A stretch of DNA of 64,000 bases, taken from the NCBI GenBank assembly GCA_947501845.1, contig CANMXP010000026.1:1-64000 (forward strand). Direction: 5' to 3'. Below the pieces are notes generated by a model, which saw only the letters and a program-made list of their open reading frames with translations, was not told the origin of the DNA and did not search any database. Positions within the stretch are counted from its first letter, which is position 1. Every line of letters starts with the position of its first letter. The position numbers and the translations under genes were made by a program. The DNA is from an uncultured Flavobacteriaceae bacterium (GTDB taxonomy: Bacteria; Bacteroidota; Bacteroidia; Flavobacteriales; Flavobacteriaceae). Shown here piece by piece: positions 48,020-53,206 of this stretch.

Positions 48020-49504
48020 ATGGTATCGTACACAACTAAAGTAAAACAGTTTCTTAGTCAAGACCCTATTCCTCTTTTTATTGGAGGTGCATGGATGAAA
48101 AATTCTAAAGATAAGATCATTAACGTTGAAAATCCTTCGGACCAATCATTACTCGCCAACGTAAGTAAAGCTGATGCCAATGATACTAAAAGTGCCATTG
48201 AAGTAGCAGATAAAGCTTTTGCTGAATGGAAAAATGTAAGTCCAGAGAAACGCGCCGTTATTATAAATAAATTTGCAGATTTATGCGAAAGAGATGCTGA
48301 AGAATTAGCGCAATTGGAAGCACTAGATGTAGGAAAGGTGGTTAATAATGCCAGAGGGTTTGATGTACCATTTGGTGTTGAGTCATTACGTTATTATGCT
48401 AATTTAATTCAAAAAGAAACTTTTGAGAAAACATTATCGATTGATGGTGTTGAAAGTAAATCTGTTCGTTTACCTTTTGGAGTGGTGGCTTTTATTTTTC
48501 CTTGGAATTTCCCGCTTACTTTATGTATGTGGGGTATTGGGCCTGCGTTAGCTGCTGGTAATACAATAGTGGTAAAGCCAGCAGAAGTAACTCCCTTAAG
48601 TACCTTATATCTTGGTTTACTGGCAAAAGAAGCTGGAATTCCAGATGGCGTTTTAAATATTATACCTGCAGATGGACCAGAAGCTGGGGAAGTTTTGACT
48701 TCGCACCCAAAAGTAAAATGTGTATCCTTTACAGGATCATCCAGAGTTGGAAAAATAATCGGCCAGGCATGTGGGTTTAACCTAAAACCTTCAAAACTAG
48801 AATTAGGGGGCAAAGGAGCTGCTGTTGTTTTTGATGATGCCGATTTGGATTCTGTGGCTGTAGGACTGGCAGGAGCCATTACCTTAAATACGGGACAAGT
48901 TTGTTGTACAGCTACACGTTGGATCATTCACGAAAAAGTGATGGATAGTTTTGTTGAAAAGGTTAAAAAGGAGTTAGAAAAAACTAAAATAGGACCAGGA
49001 ATGATTGAGGAAAATGAAATGGGGCCTGTTGTTAGCAGTAAGCAGTTGAATACGATTCTGGATTATATAGATAAAGGTGTGAAAGAAGGCGCTGAAGTGA
49101 TTTGTGGTGGTGAGCGCATTAAAGATGCTGATTTTGGTAAAGGGTACTATGTGGCTCCAACATTATTAAGAGGAGATGAACATAATATTTGCTTCAAAGA
49201 AGAAATATTTGGCCCCGTAGCTTACATAACATCGTTTATTGATGAGGCCGACGCCGTTCGTCAGGTAAACAGTTTGGATTATGGTCTTGCTAATAGTGTC
49301 TGGACTTCCGATAAAGAACGTGCAGATCGTGTTGCTAAATCTATGGTTTCTGGTAATAGTTGGATAAATGCCCATAATGTGTTTGCCTATGGACTTCCTT
49401 ATGGAGGTGTTAATGGAAGCGGTAATGGAGGCGGTGTTAATAGTGTGCAAACATTGTTTGATTATACGCGTTCTCTCTCTATTGCAGAACCTGTTTTGAT
49501 TTAA
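48020..49504 (+). CDS. Aldehyde dehydrogenase family protein
   Basis: A 494-residue NAD(P)-dependent aldehyde dehydrogenase. Catalytic Asn/Lys in PWNFPLTL and VVKPAE, general base Glu261 in LELGGKG, catalytic Cys295 in NTGQVCCTATR, and GGERI near the C-terminal half are all present, in the ALDH1/betaine-aldehyde-like subgroup. It oxidises an aldehyde to the acid. Three bases separate it from an APH-fold kinase that in turn overlaps an enolase-like gene, suggesting the acid is then phosphorylated and dehydrated. Confidence 0.93.
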   Translation: MVSYTTKVKQFLSQDPIPLFIGGAWMKNSKDKIINVENPSDQSLLANVSKADANDTKSAIEVADKAFAEWKNVSPEKRAVIINKFADLCERDAEELAQLEALDVGKVVNNARGFDVPFGVESLRYYANLIQKETFEKTLSIDGVESKSVRLPFGVVAFIFPWNFPLTLCMWGIGPALAAGNTIVVKPAEVTPLSTLYLGLLAKEAGIPDGVLNIIPADGPEAGEVLTSHPKVKCVSFTGSSRVGKIIGQACGFNLKPSKLELGGKGAAVVFDDADLDSVAVGLAGAITLNTGQVCCTATRWIIHEKVMDSFVEKVKKELEKTKIGPGMIEENEMGPVVSSKQLNTILDYIDKGVKEGAEVICGGERIKDADFGKGYYVAPTLLRGDEHNICFKEEIFGPVAYITSFIDEADAVRQVNSLDYGLANSVWTSDKERADRVAKSMVSGNSWINAHNVFAYGLPYGGVNGSGNGGGVNSVQTLFDYTRSLSIAEPVLI

Positions 49505-49507
49505 CTA

Positions 49508-50503
49508 ATGGAAATAGCTAAATTAATAGCGTATTTGGTAGAACAGGGCGTATTGAAGACTACCAATGTGGATATTGTGCCCCTAAGTGGCGGCGTGTCT
49601 TGTGAAATTCTTTTAATAGATGATGGAGAAAAACGCTTTGTATTAAAACGTGCTTTAGAAAAATTAAAAGTTGAAGACGATTGGTTTGCAGATGTAAAAA
49701 GAAATGAAATCGAACAACGCTATTTAAAGTATGTAGCAACATTTCTCTTTGATTCGGTTCCTGCTATTATTTACAGTGACAGTAAGCATCATTTTTTTTG
49801 TATGGAAATGCTGGAAAATGGCTTAGAAAACTGGAAAGAACAGCTTCTTAATAAAAATTATAATGCAGCATATGCAAAAAAAGCTGGCGAACTATTAGGA
49901 GCTATTCATTTTAAATCTGCTGAAGATCGTGAAGTGGCAAAGGATTTTGATACGCTGGGTAATTTTCATGAGCTTCGTATAGAACCTTATTTACTTAAAA
50001 CAGGAGAAAAGCATCCAGAATTGGCAGTTTATTTTCAAAAGGAAGCGCTGAGGTTAAGTGAAAAAAAAACATGTTTGGTTCACGGTGATTTTAGTCCTAA
50101 AAATATTTTAGTAGGCCCTAATCGCTTGGTCGTTCTAGATTGTGAAGTCGCATGGTATGGAGATCCGATATTCGACATTGCCTTTCTATTAAATCATGTT
50201 ATTTTAAAATCACTTTATTTATCAGAAGATATAGAAACACTCATACAACTAGCAAACGAAGCTTGGATAGGTTATAAGAAAGAAGCCAAAACACTTATAA
50301 ATAAACATTCTGAAACACAATTGGTTCATTTACTTCTTATGCTAATGTTGGCAAGAGTTGATGGTAAATCGCCTGTGGAGTACCTAAATAGTTCTCAGAA
50401 AAAAATAGTAACAGACTTTGTTTATCAAGAACTGCCTTTAGGTAGTAATAATTTCGAACAATTTAAAAATAAATGGTTAAAATATAATGCAGTAATATTA
50501 TGA
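49508..50503 (+). CDS. APH-fold small-molecule kinase
   Basis: A 331-residue kinase of the aminoglycoside/choline phosphotransferase fold. The catalytic loop VHGDFSPKNIL gives His192, Asp194 and Asn199, and the metal-binding Asp211 is in VVLDCEVAWYGDP. The N-lobe Lys is in KRFVLKRAL. It overlaps the enolase-like gene by 4 bases (ATGA), so translation is coupled. The substrate is presumably the acid from the upstream aldehyde dehydrogenase or its precursor; a drug-resistance role is unlikely in this setting. Confidence 0.85.
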   Translation: MEIAKLIAYLVEQGVLKTTNVDIVPLSGGVSCEILLIDDGEKRFVLKRALEKLKVEDDWFADVKRNEIEQRYLKYVATFLFDSVPAIIYSDSKHHFFCMEMLENGLENWKEQLLNKNYNAAYAKKAGELLGAIHFKSAEDREVAKDFDTLGNFHELRIEPYLLKTGEKHPELAVYFQKEALRLSEKKTCLVHGDFSPKNILVGPNRLVVLDCEVAWYGDPIFDIAFLLNHVILKSLYLSEDIETLIQLANEAWIGYKKEAKTLINKHSETQLVHLLLMLMLARVDGKSPVEYLNSSQKKIVTDFVYQELPLGSNNFEQFKNKWLKYNAVIL

Positions 50504-51801
50504 GAATTAAAGATATAGATGCTTATCAAATATATGATTCCAGAGGGTTTCCTACACTTGAAGTTGAGGTAACGTTAGATAGTGGTATAAAAGGGTATGG
50601 ACTAGTGCCATCTGGTGCTTCAACTGGTCAGTTTGAAGCCTTAGAACTAAGAGATGATGATAGTACCCGCTTTAGGGGAAAATCAGTTTTTAAAGCCATC
50701 AATAATGTAAAAACGGTACTGTCTGAAGCTTTAAAAGGAACATCGGTTTTTAATTTGGAGCAGATAGATAGAAAGATGATTGCTTTAGATGGTACAGTAA
50801 ATAAATCAAACTTAGGAGCAAATGCGATTCTAGGAGTTTCTATGGCAGTTGCCAATGCAGCAGCAAACCAGCAAGGAATTCCTTTATACGAATATTTGGG
50901 TGAAGGAAAAGGGGTCTTAATTCCTCTTAATGAAATTCAAATTTTAGGAGGAGGGGCACATGCTGCCTGGGCTACAGATATTCAAGATTATTTGGTTATT
51001 GCCGTTGGAGCTAAAACCTATGAGGAAACCTTAGAGATGACACACAATATTTATCATGCTGCAGGTGAAGTTATGAAAGCACGTGGTAAATGTGTTGGAA
51101 TAGCAGATGAAGGTGGTTGGTGGCCAGACTACCTAACAAATGAAGAACCTTTTGATGTGTTTTTGGAAGCTGTTAAGAAAGCAGGTTATATTGCTGGTAA
51201 AGATGTAGCTATTTCTTTAGATATAGCTGCAAGTGATCTTTTTGATGGGACAAAATATCATTTTAAACTAACAGACGAATCATTTACACCTCAAGAGTTT
51301 TGTGATTTAATGATTACCTGGTGCGATAAGTACCCTATTATTTCTATTGAAGACCCTTTCTCAGATACCGATTTTGAAAGCTGGAAACGTTTTAATGAAA
51401 CATGTGGTCATAAAGTTCAGATTATAGGGGACGACCTTTTTACAACGAATATAGAACGTATAAAACAAGGGATTGAAGAAGGTTTAGCCAATTCTGTATT
51501 GATAAAATTAAATCAAATAGGTACCGTAACAGAAACCCTTGAAGCTATAAGATTAACACAAGAAGCAGGTTGGTTGCCTGTAGTTTCTGCCAGATCTGGA
51601 GAAACAGAAGACGCCTTTATTTCTCACTTAGCAGTCGCAACTAACGCAGGGCAGCTAAAAGTAGGATCTTTTGCTAGAAGCGAACGTATGATTAAATGGA
51701 ATGAAAACTTACGAATTCAACGTAGTTTAGGAAATAAAGCTCAATTCATAGGTGGTAAGATTTATGAACGTATTTTAAAGGAAAAACCTTTAATAGTATA
51801 A
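50500..51801 (+). CDS. Divergent enolase-like protein
   Basis: A 433-residue enolase-superfamily protein with an enolase-type N-domain. Metal ligands are kept: Asp241 (SLDIAAS), Glu284 (SIEDPF), Asp311 (GDDLF), with catalytic Lys336 (LIKLNQIG), Glu204 (DEGG), His154 and Arg365/Ser366 (SARSGETED). But the usual QEF is QDY (Asp163 in place of catalytic-region Glu), the usual SHRSGE is SARSGE (Ala364 in place of His), and DEGGWWPDY replaces DEGGFAP. These point to a related but different substrate, probably a 2-phospho-acid. Likely a paralogue; a normal eno gene is expected elsewhere. Confidence 0.85.
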   Translation: MRIKDIDAYQIYDSRGFPTLEVEVTLDSGIKGYGLVPSGASTGQFEALELRDDDSTRFRGKSVFKAINNVKTVLSEALKGTSVFNLEQIDRKMIALDGTVNKSNLGANAILGVSMAVANAAANQQGIPLYEYLGEGKGVLIPLNEIQILGGGAHAAWATDIQDYLVIAVGAKTYEETLEMTHNIYHAAGEVMKARGKCVGIADEGGWWPDYLTNEEPFDVFLEAVKKAGYIAGKDVAISLDIAASDLFDGTKYHFKLTDESFTPQEFCDLMITWCDKYPIISIEDPFSDTDFESWKRFNETCGHKVQIIGDDLFTTNIERIKQGIEEGLANSVLIKLNQIGTVTETLEAIRLTQEAGWLPVVSARSGETEDAFISHLAVATNAGQLKVGSFARSERMIKWNENLRIQRSLGNKAQFIGGKIYERILKEKPLIV

Positions 51802-52626: not shown

Positions 52627-52657
52627 AAAAAGGATGTAATCAAATTACATCCTTTTT
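52627..52657 (-). terminator. Strong terminator of the micro-gene cluster
   Basis: AAAAAGGATGTAAT and ATTACATCCTTTTT form a perfect 14-bp stem with a 3-base loop; the leftward strand then reads a run of Ts. It overlaps the stop codon of the 44-aa ORF. Confidence 0.88.
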
Positions 52658-52790
52658 AATAAGCATAATGTTTTAAGCGTTTCCAAACATCTTCATGTGA
52701 ATTATTAAGGTTTGGTATATTTCTATCTGTAAATAAGTTTTCTTGAGCGATACTATTTAAGTATCTCGATATTTTTGTTGCTGATTTCAT
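52656..52790 (-). CDS. Small protein, 44 aa (micro-gene 3)
   Basis: ATG at 52790, TAA at 52656. The product starts MKSATKISRYLNSIAQENLF and ends WKRLKHYAY; it is basic, helix-prone and rich in Asn/Arg/Lys. It is not similar to the two 28-aa paralogues upstream but shares orientation and probably transcript. A strong terminator lies at its end. Translation is not proven; the ORF is supported by its position, a plausible A/T-rich start region and the clean terminator. Confidence 0.5.
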   Translation of the reverse strand: MKSATKISRYLNSIAQENLFTDRNIPNLNNSHEDVWKRLKHYAY

Positions 52791-52806
52791 ATTTGATTAT
52801 TTAATA

Positions 52807-52821
52807 CTGAAACAAGTTCAG
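52807..52821. repeat. REP-like palindrome CTGAAacaagTTCAG
   Basis: Five-base arms; nearly the reverse complement of the element at 5315-5329 (one base differs). Lies between the 44-aa and second 28-aa ORFs. Confidence 0.5.
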
Positions 52822-52850
52822 CGCGGGTTTATTGATAAAAATTTTGTTTT

Positions 52851-52880
52851 AAAAGACGCTACTTACCTGTAACGTCTTTT
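52851..52880 (-). terminator. Hairpin overlapping the 3' end of micro-gene 2
   Basis: Leftward strand: AAAAGACGTTAC, loop AGGTAA, GTAGCGTCTTTT; 12 pairs with one U-G wobble, followed by A/T-rich sequence. The 5' arm includes the last codons (Arg-Arg-Tyr) of the 28-aa ORF and the loop its stop codon, so termination or mRNA stability could be coupled to translation of the peptide. Confidence 0.6.
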
Positions 52881-52949
52881 GCTGTTCCAGTTGTAACTTT
52901 TTGTATTGTTTAAAGTTCCACTTAATTGATTACTGTTTAATGTTCTCAT
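52863..52949 (-). CDS. Micropeptide, 28 aa (micro-gene 2)
   Basis: ATG at 52949, TAA at 52863. It is 22/28 identical to the neighbouring ORF at 53019-53105: both begin MRTLN-x-NQLSGTL and end in a Trp-Asn ... Lys-Arg-Arg-Tyr-Arg tail. Differences sit at residues 6, 14, 15, 19, 20 and 23. Reading-frame identity between diverged copies, with conserved start and stop positions, is good evidence that the peptide is made. It has no Cys or signal peptide and a strongly basic C-terminus. Function unknown. Confidence 0.65.
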   Translation of the reverse strand: MRTLNSNQLSGTLNNTKSYNWNSKRRYR

Positions 52950-52971
52950 AATTTCTAAATTAAATTTTTGA

Positions 52972-52990
52972 TACTGAACGTGATTCAGTA
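52972..52990. repeat. Palindrome TACTGAAcgtgaTTCAGTA
   Basis: Seven-base perfect arms with a 5-base loop, related to the CTGAA...TTCAG elements at 5315 and 52807. Lies between the two paralogous 28-aa ORFs. Confidence 0.55.
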
Positions 52991-53018
52991 CAGGTTGATT
53001 TTTTAATATTTAACGAAT

Positions 53019-53105
53019 TTATCTATAACGCCTTTTTTTATTCCAATGGTTGCTTTTAGTTCCAGTTAAAGTTCCGCTTAATTGATTGTTGTTTAATGTT
53101 CTCAT
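53019..53105 (-). CDS. Micropeptide, 28 aa (micro-gene 1)
   Basis: ATG at 53105, TAA at 53019. Paralogue of the ORF at 52863-52949 (22/28 residues identical), beginning MRTLNNNQLSGTLTGTKS and ending WNKKRRYR. A possible promoter (TTG, 18 bases, TTACTTTG, one mismatch to TAnnTTTG) lies 73-101 bases upstream at 53178-53206. The N-terminal LNxNQLSGTLxG faintly recalls leader parts of peptide natural-product precursors, but no modification enzyme or transporter is adjacent. Confidence 0.65.
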   Translation of the reverse strand: MRTLNNNQLSGTLTGTKSNHWNKKRRYR

Positions 53106-53177
53106 AATTGTTGTCTTTTAATTGATTTATACTAGATAGACGACCAGAAGATAAAAATGTTACAGTACTATGCATAA

Positions 53178-53206
53178 CAAAGTAATAAATTAACGTGTTT
53201 TAACAA
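53178..53206 (-). promoter_or_regulatory. Possible promoter of the micro-gene cluster
   Basis: Read leftward: TTG, 18-base spacer, TTACTTTG (one mismatch to TAnnTTTG). It is the best candidate in the 274-base divergent region 53106-53379. Confidence 0.3.

Follow-up and report, generated by a model that had tools for sequence, protein, structure and literature searches.

Does an apparently gene-free region between exbD and a divergent gene for a secreted-type protein encode peptides, and what would such peptides do for the bacterium? The window, that is, the whole stretch of DNA that was analysed, comprises 64,000 nt from an uncultured member of the Flavobacteriaceae (contig CANMXP010000026.1). 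The original prediction placed three minus-strand ORFs (28, 28 and 44 aa) at 52656-53105, and these coordinates were matched exactly by the ORF listing. The 22 of 28 residues that it found common to both 28-aa products amount to 79% identity; at the DNA level the two copies are spanned by a repeat of 91 nt, also with 79% identity. The strong terminator said to close the set consists of a 14-bp stem without mismatches, a loop of 3 nt and a subsequent U-run (-15.9 kcal/mol, z -6.85), although this stem-loop was absent from the list of a simple terminator scan. The genes and the terminator are as follows.

53019-53105, minus strand: 28-aa micropeptide gene, copy 1
52863-52949, minus strand: 28-aa micropeptide gene, copy 2, the last before the 44-aa gene
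52656-52790, minus strand: 44-aa micropeptide gene, second family
52627-52657, minus strand: terminator-like stem-loop after the 44-aa gene

The gene for the divergent secreted-type protein (about 225 aa) lies on one side of the operon and exbD on the other; an aldo/keto reductase gene stands beyond, and many relatives are arranged alike. This order is frequent without being universal: 17 of 27 three-kb loci, and 29 of 67 loci that extend to at most eight kb, contained an ExbD-type motif. Because the operon has a promoter block of its own and, in the window, its own terminator, we do not read exbD and the other neighbors as its partners. Nearby (48020-51801) the DNA encodes an aldehyde dehydrogenase, a phosphotransferase of the APH type and an enolase homolog, perhaps as a catabolic unit. 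Rfam, searched at gathering scores, gave no match to a known RNA element in the window. REP-like palindromes (CTGAA...TTCAG) occupy the spacers between the micropeptide genes at 52806-52821 and 52973-52989; the spacers of related genomes hold REP-like palindromes or another palindrome (GGACTTCGGCTACGCTCAGTCC). Runs of the tetranucleotide ATCA (CATCAATCAATCAA), possibly a translation leader, stand ahead of many start codons, those of certain other genes as well as those of the two peptides (e.g., in the spacers of loci L007, L013, and L036).

Homologs with a conserved frame were sought in related genomes. Within Flavivirga, the genus to which the window belongs, a match to the 28-aa sequence was present in 12/12 genomes. 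With a profile built from this genus only (E<=0.01) the family was detected in 133 of 397 sampled Flavobacteriaceae genomes and 93 of 237 genera, 21 of the 133 genomes having a best E > 1e-4 that may be due to chance. Matches listed in named genomes include at least Winogradskyella, Aquimarina, Algibacter, Hyunsoonleella, Psychroserpens, Bizionia, Ulvibacter, and Aequorivita. With a broader profile, matches were obtained in 11 of 395 genomes in a sample of the order and in 5 of 395 in a sample of the phylum, and every matching genome belongs to the same family; these two samples draw the outer limit of the distribution only roughly. The 44-aa profile matched 59 of the 397 family genomes at E<=0.01. 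Comparison by eye placed each of the 38 matches that reached E<=1e-4 immediately behind a 28-aa match, and several of the weaker matches (E > 1e-4) contain stop codons and represent chance.

Selection was assessed among the Flavivirga orthologs. The dN/dS was 0.155 for 12 first copies, 0.083 for 11 last copies and 0.22 for 12 copies of the 44-aa gene, which was present in 12/12 Flavivirga loci compared; codon differences are mostly at third positions. The original prediction had viewed the ORFs as selected peptides rather than decayed DNA and had proposed the search for homologs and the dN/dS between copies as checks; the results of both speak for it. Purifying selection on the coding frame of both peptides is well supported by these sequence comparisons. 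The idea of chance ORFs or decaying repeats, suggested by the gene-free look of the region, its palindromes and the ATCA repeats in the spacers of relatives, is refuted by the spread of the peptides over genus and family together with dN/dS values well below 1, and we give it practically no weight.

It had also been stated that no known family comes to mind, and no credible match was obtained in Pfam, NCBIfam, PHROGs, or PDB. The 28-aa peptides had no match in Pfam, where the 44-aa peptide gave only a chance-level match (E 0.073); NCBIfam gave none for either. In PHROGs the 44-aa peptide of the window reached only E 0.18 and 0.44. Profile searches of the PDB returned an unrelated best hit (E 0.25) for the 28-aa family and none for the 44-aa family. 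Both families were probably missed by the libraries because they are so short. A phage or plasmid origin was rejected, since the 28-aa peptide had no match in the phage and plasmid collections, nor the 44-aa peptide in the phage collection. In the literature no paper on the peptide motifs was found, and the papers found for 'MRTLN' were, among those listed, unrelated. The micropeptide family, its wiring and the stop-codon hairpin described below were not found in the libraries or the literature searched, the latter mostly at title level.

The 28-aa family was represented by 307 distinct peptides, collected with a profile and with a pattern in which some positions are fixed, so that conserved members are favored. 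In the 304 with at least 28 residues, W21 and R25 are invariant, and MRTL (R2, T3, L4), N7, N22, K24, and R26 are found in at least 98%; position 27 is Y in 72% and F in 26%. The 44-aa family is more variable. Mean net charge is +5.9 in the 28-aa family (307 peptides) and +5.5 in the 44-aa family. The C-terminal motif W-x3-[KR]-R-[YF] occurs in 156 of 160 distinct 28-aa peptides and 47 of 63 distinct 44-aa peptides, and homology and convergence are alike possible as its origin. No strongly hydrophobic stretch was revealed in either family by a hydropathy scan, in which the highest 15-residue mean was 0.28 for the 307 28-aa peptides and 0.61 for the 63 44-aa peptides; a type I toxin, which would have a hydrophobic membrane-spanning stretch, was rejected on these values. 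AlphaFold2 returned a low-confidence single helix for the 44-aa peptide (pLDDT 70.4, pTM 0.29), which is uninformative. The Arg codons at positions 25 and 26 of the 28-aa gene are position-biased, AGA being followed by CGT, also in copies with no 44-aa gene after them; the bias exceeds local codon usage (AGA 0.38, CGT 0.25) and is an unexplained nucleotide constraint.

The composition of the peptides bears on two roles suggested earlier. Cationic surface peptides are disfavored, neither family having the hydrophobic stretch that a signal peptide would need. Secreted or modified precursors of a peptide product (antimicrobial, RiPP, or signal) would agree with the tandem similar copies and with a cationic sequence rich in Trp and Arg. 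The putative core W-N-x-K-R-R-[YF]-R, however, is among the most conserved parts and not variable, no modification or export gene was noticed among the neighbors seen (such as ExbD and an aldo/keto reductase), and the lack of a signal-like stretch and of phage or plasmid matches for the 28-aa peptide also argues against such precursors, which we consider very improbable. A RiPP precursor was rejected specifically, as its pattern of a conserved leader and a variable core was not found.

The layout can be read directly from the sequence. A promoter-like block is followed by one to four 28-codon genes, the last often bearing a hairpin at its stop codon, and by a 44-codon gene, behind which the window has a terminator. 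The conserved promoter block, the hairpin over the stop codon of copy 2 and the standing of the 44-aa gene as a conserved family within the array go beyond the original prediction. Among 106 loci, one 28-aa gene was present in 50, two in 46, three in 9 and four in 1; one of the nine three-copy loci includes a duplicated unit further downstream. In one Flavivirga genome (L007, 1501-2731) the 28-aa and 44-aa genes are duplicated as a unit, about 500 nt after the first 44-aa gene. A recognised 44-aa gene was found in 64 of the 106 loci, with a median gap of 49 nt behind the 28-aa gene. Another ORF of 43-45 aa lies close after the last 28-aa gene in 12 of 45 loci without a recognised 44-aa gene, and two 44-aa sequences from Aquimarina look intermediate.

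The region ahead of copy 1 in the window carries the following elements.

53138-53164, minus strand: ECF-sigma-like core promoter, TGTAAC-N16-CGTCT
53166-53184, minus strand: inverted repeat TACTTTG-TTATG-CATAGTA, resembling that at a PadR operon
53190-53204, minus strand: direct repeat GTTAA-N5-GTTAA, part of the conserved block

Conservation of the block was analysed in 101 regions upstream of first copies, a few of them from the same genome and one (L133) a repeat of another (L028). Exact TGTAAC-N16-CGTC was present in 84/101 regions and in 0/2020 shuffles. When up to 2 mismatches were allowed, a count of 84/101 was also obtained for the inverted repeat TACTWTG-N5-CAWAGTA, compared to 25/2020 shuffles. 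Both elements occurred together in 81/101. A looser core pattern, which fixes GTAAC by construction, was matched in 90/101 regions with the same spacing in 89 of the 90; aligned, these regions also conserve GTTAAAATNTGTTAA upstream and TAGTATAA after CGTC. Six of the 90 have no recognisable inverted repeat, and the whole block is missing in 11/101 regions.

We take TGTAAC...CGTC to be an ECF-sigma promoter pattern (sigma-X/V-like). The likeness to ECF-sigma regulons consists in the -35-like TGTAAC, the -10-like CGTC, the fixed spacer and a similar element before an ECF gene of the family. In the bacterium's own genome TGTAAC-N15-17-CGTCT occurs 11 times vs 7 for the reversed control, and one of these sites lies just before an ECF sigma gene. 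The 18-base promoter core has six other matches there, all with 3 mismatches; the combined pattern of direct repeat and core had no exact match in that genome, the repeat of the window operon itself deviating from the pattern. Among 30 loci with relatives of the ECF gene, TGTAAC-N15-18-CGTC (one mismatch allowed) precedes the start in 21/21 of those in which a start was found. The spacer is, however, one base shorter at the micropeptide operon (N16) than at the ECF gene of the own genome (N17). This ECF was detected in 54/120 genomes (E<=1e-40); because it was undetected in some genomes that have the peptides (e.g., G028 and G037), we do not claim it as the cognate sigma factor of the micropeptide promoter.

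The inverted repeat was also found in the own genome upstream of an operon that, by domain scans, encodes DUF4870 and PadR, followed by a PspC protein that also has LiaI-LiaF-TM and toastrack domains. At a tolerance of 2 mismatches, the 1 kb upstream of padR contained the repeat in 29/30 loci, these being the loci most like the query, vs 24/600 shuffled 1-kb stretches. Two TGTTAA repeats precede the inverted repeat in most of the printed padR upstream sequences; by eye, the last TGTTAA is about 5 nt from the inverted repeat at the micropeptide operon and 7 nt at padR. The padR operon promoter shows TATATTTG, which presumably is of the TAnnTTTG type, whereas the core at the micropeptide operon is ECF-like. 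Genome-wide, the inverted repeat (up to 2 mismatches) is not enriched in the own genome (144 vs 174 in the reversed control), so that conservation across genera is what argues for a PadR link. PadR was present in 113/120 genomes sampled and the peptides in about a third; presence and absence therefore lend the link no support. At C24:64175 and C24:65194 of the own genome (loci L170 and L171), palindromes of the form TACTTTG-N5-CAAAGTA flank the genes of a membrane-type protein (203 aa) and a regulator-like one (97 aa), perhaps as another operator of the same type. Passages of an analysis of the phage-shock-type response (PSP) propose that PadR with a HAAS domain is an alternative to two-component systems in envelope stress (PMC11237479). 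Our operon resembles the PadR-PspC/toastrack branch of that response in the inverted repeat preceded by TGTTAA repeats; those passages name no micropeptide partners of PadR-PspC and mention Bacteroidetes once, for PspA-Snf7 neighborhoods (PMC11237479).

We infer the transcription, regulation and molecular action of the peptides from these sequence features. The best reading, held with middling confidence, is a stress-induced pair of cytoplasmic cationic micropeptides that would act in trans on the membrane or the ribosome. An ECF sigma factor would read the promoter and PadR, which sits with PspC/toastrack envelope-stress proteins, would tune it, so the peptides would be made under envelope stress.

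Stress-controlled small proteins are a known kind: small stress proteins are known in enterobacteria, and RMF and SRA are ribosome factors. The micropeptides resemble these in size, basic charge and their presumed stress control; no credible sequence relation to them was detected in Pfam, NCBIfam or PDB. It may be proposed that the peptides are themselves ribosome- or RNA-binding stress factors, the basic-aromatic tails binding rRNA and tuning translation under stress in the manner of hibernation or small-subunit accessory proteins. Their small size and strong basicity, the C-terminal W, R, and Y/F in most members of both families and the absence of a membrane segment are consistent with this, and tandem copies could supply a high dose. 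Against it, the PDB search, ribosomal chains included, gave no credible match, the promoter points to envelope stress, and the peptides occur in about a third of the sampled family genomes, so they are not core. We judge this role rather unlikely.

A further alternative concerns an RNA element in the message.

52851-52880, minus strand: hairpin over the stop codon of 28-aa copy 2, a 12-bp stem with the stop codon in the loop (-14.8 kcal/mol, z -6.46)

In the window the KRRY-coding end of the gene forms the 5' arm of this hairpin, while copy 1 shows no folding at its end (-0.7 kcal/mol). Where a 44-aa gene follows, the sequence AAAAGACGTTAC-AGATAA-GTAACGTCTTTT, or a variant of it, often closes the last 28-aa gene, again with the stop codon in the loop. 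A perfect stem of at least 8 bp was found in 37/79 copies before a 44-aa gene, 6/149 before another 28-aa gene and 4/112 others (Fisher p 1e-14 and 3e-13, only a guide as the copies are related). An energy of -6 kcal/mol or lower was reached by 47 of 70 distinct ends. When the 3' sides were swapped 200 times, native ends paired better on average than in any of the swaps, whether the 47 or all 70 were considered. Because native pairing beats every swap, we conclude that many lineages maintain the hairpin, although about a third of the ends are without it. Its U-tract is short, and for this reason we read it as a message stabiliser or attenuator, not as a full terminator.

The 11 regions without the promoter block (ten distinct places) hold stray 28-aa copies, whose neighbors were named by eye. 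Stray copies precede MacAB-like operons (L102, L132) and ABC-2-type transporter operons (L126, L130). Downstream of a TetR-type regulator and an NTF2-like gene, they precede an alpha/beta hydrolase gene (L027, L028) or a carboxymuconolactone-decarboxylase-like gene (L127). A further copy (L135) precedes a serine hydrolase gene adjoining a two-component pair, and for two (L119, L139) no clear partner was seen. In some cases a gap of 35-41 nt separates the stray copy from the following gene. Some of the genes behind the stray copies are apparently for efflux; the peptide may be co-produced with other operons or be used as a leader, and the arrangement is compatible with both. At L102 and L132, divergent from an NtrC-type regulator, TTGGCAC-N5-TTGA, presumably a sigma-54-like element, was seen by eye upstream of the 28-aa gene.

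These observations bring in the chief rival, a cis-acting leader peptide, the form in which the small regulatory peptides of the original prediction may still be considered. Translation of the last 28-aa ORF, perhaps with stalling near the C-terminus, would decide whether the hairpin forms and hence how strongly the 44-aa gene is expressed, and stray copies would do likewise for other operons. Known leader-peptide attenuators include pyrBI, TnaC, and SecM, and arrest peptides have a conserved C-terminus. The 28-aa gene is like them in being a short ORF that ends within an RNA hairpin ahead of a further gene, and in its highly conserved C-terminus; the hairpin is enriched before the 44-aa gene, its native pairing is better than that of all swaps, its stop codon sits in the loop, and some stray copies stand close ahead of the next gene. 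In contrast to such attenuators, the genes are often in tandem, with two to four copies in 56/106 loci where a single leader ORF would be expected, the downstream gene, where recognised, itself encodes a micropeptide, the U-tract is short and the N-terminus is near-invariant too (MRTL, N7). The hairpin is also absent from part of the loci, a perfect stem being lacking in 42/79 copies before a 44-aa gene and 23/70 ends not folding at -6 kcal/mol, and no common regulated gene was found. On this evidence a leader role for the 28-aa gene seems doubtful.

A more elaborate possibility, which we regard as speculative and improbable, is that the 28-aa peptide doubles as a portable sensor of translation. 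Envelope stress would turn on the tandem array through a composite PadR and ECF promoter, the fate of the ribosome at the conserved WNxKRRYR-stop end over the hairpin would set the ratio of 28-aa to 44-aa effector, and stray copies would have been recruited in the same way before efflux-like and ABC-transporter operons.

For the preferred reading of a trans-acting micropeptide pair, the tandem copies would raise the dose of the 28-aa peptide, and the hairpin would protect the 28-aa message or reduce read-through, so that less 44-aa peptide would be made. The steps that follow are the least certain. Both peptides would stay in the cytoplasm and act in trans; their common basic-aromatic C-terminus (W-x3-[KR]-R-[YF]) could bind a polyanionic partner, for which the ribosome and the inner face of the membrane are the candidates; and they might thereby serve as dosage-dependent stress effectors.

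The Flavobacteriaceae are abundant marine bacteria, and the gene pair described here occurs across many of their genera, yet is covered by no family library searched. An operon that many flavobacteria retain intact behind a conserved stress-type promoter suggests a hitherto unknown piece of the flavobacterial envelope-stress response. The conserved promoter offers a route to the function of the micropeptide pair and suggests that the little-studied PadR-PspC stress response may have small effectors of its own, and the stop-codon hairpin provides a simple test of how the bacterium would set the ratio of two micropeptides.
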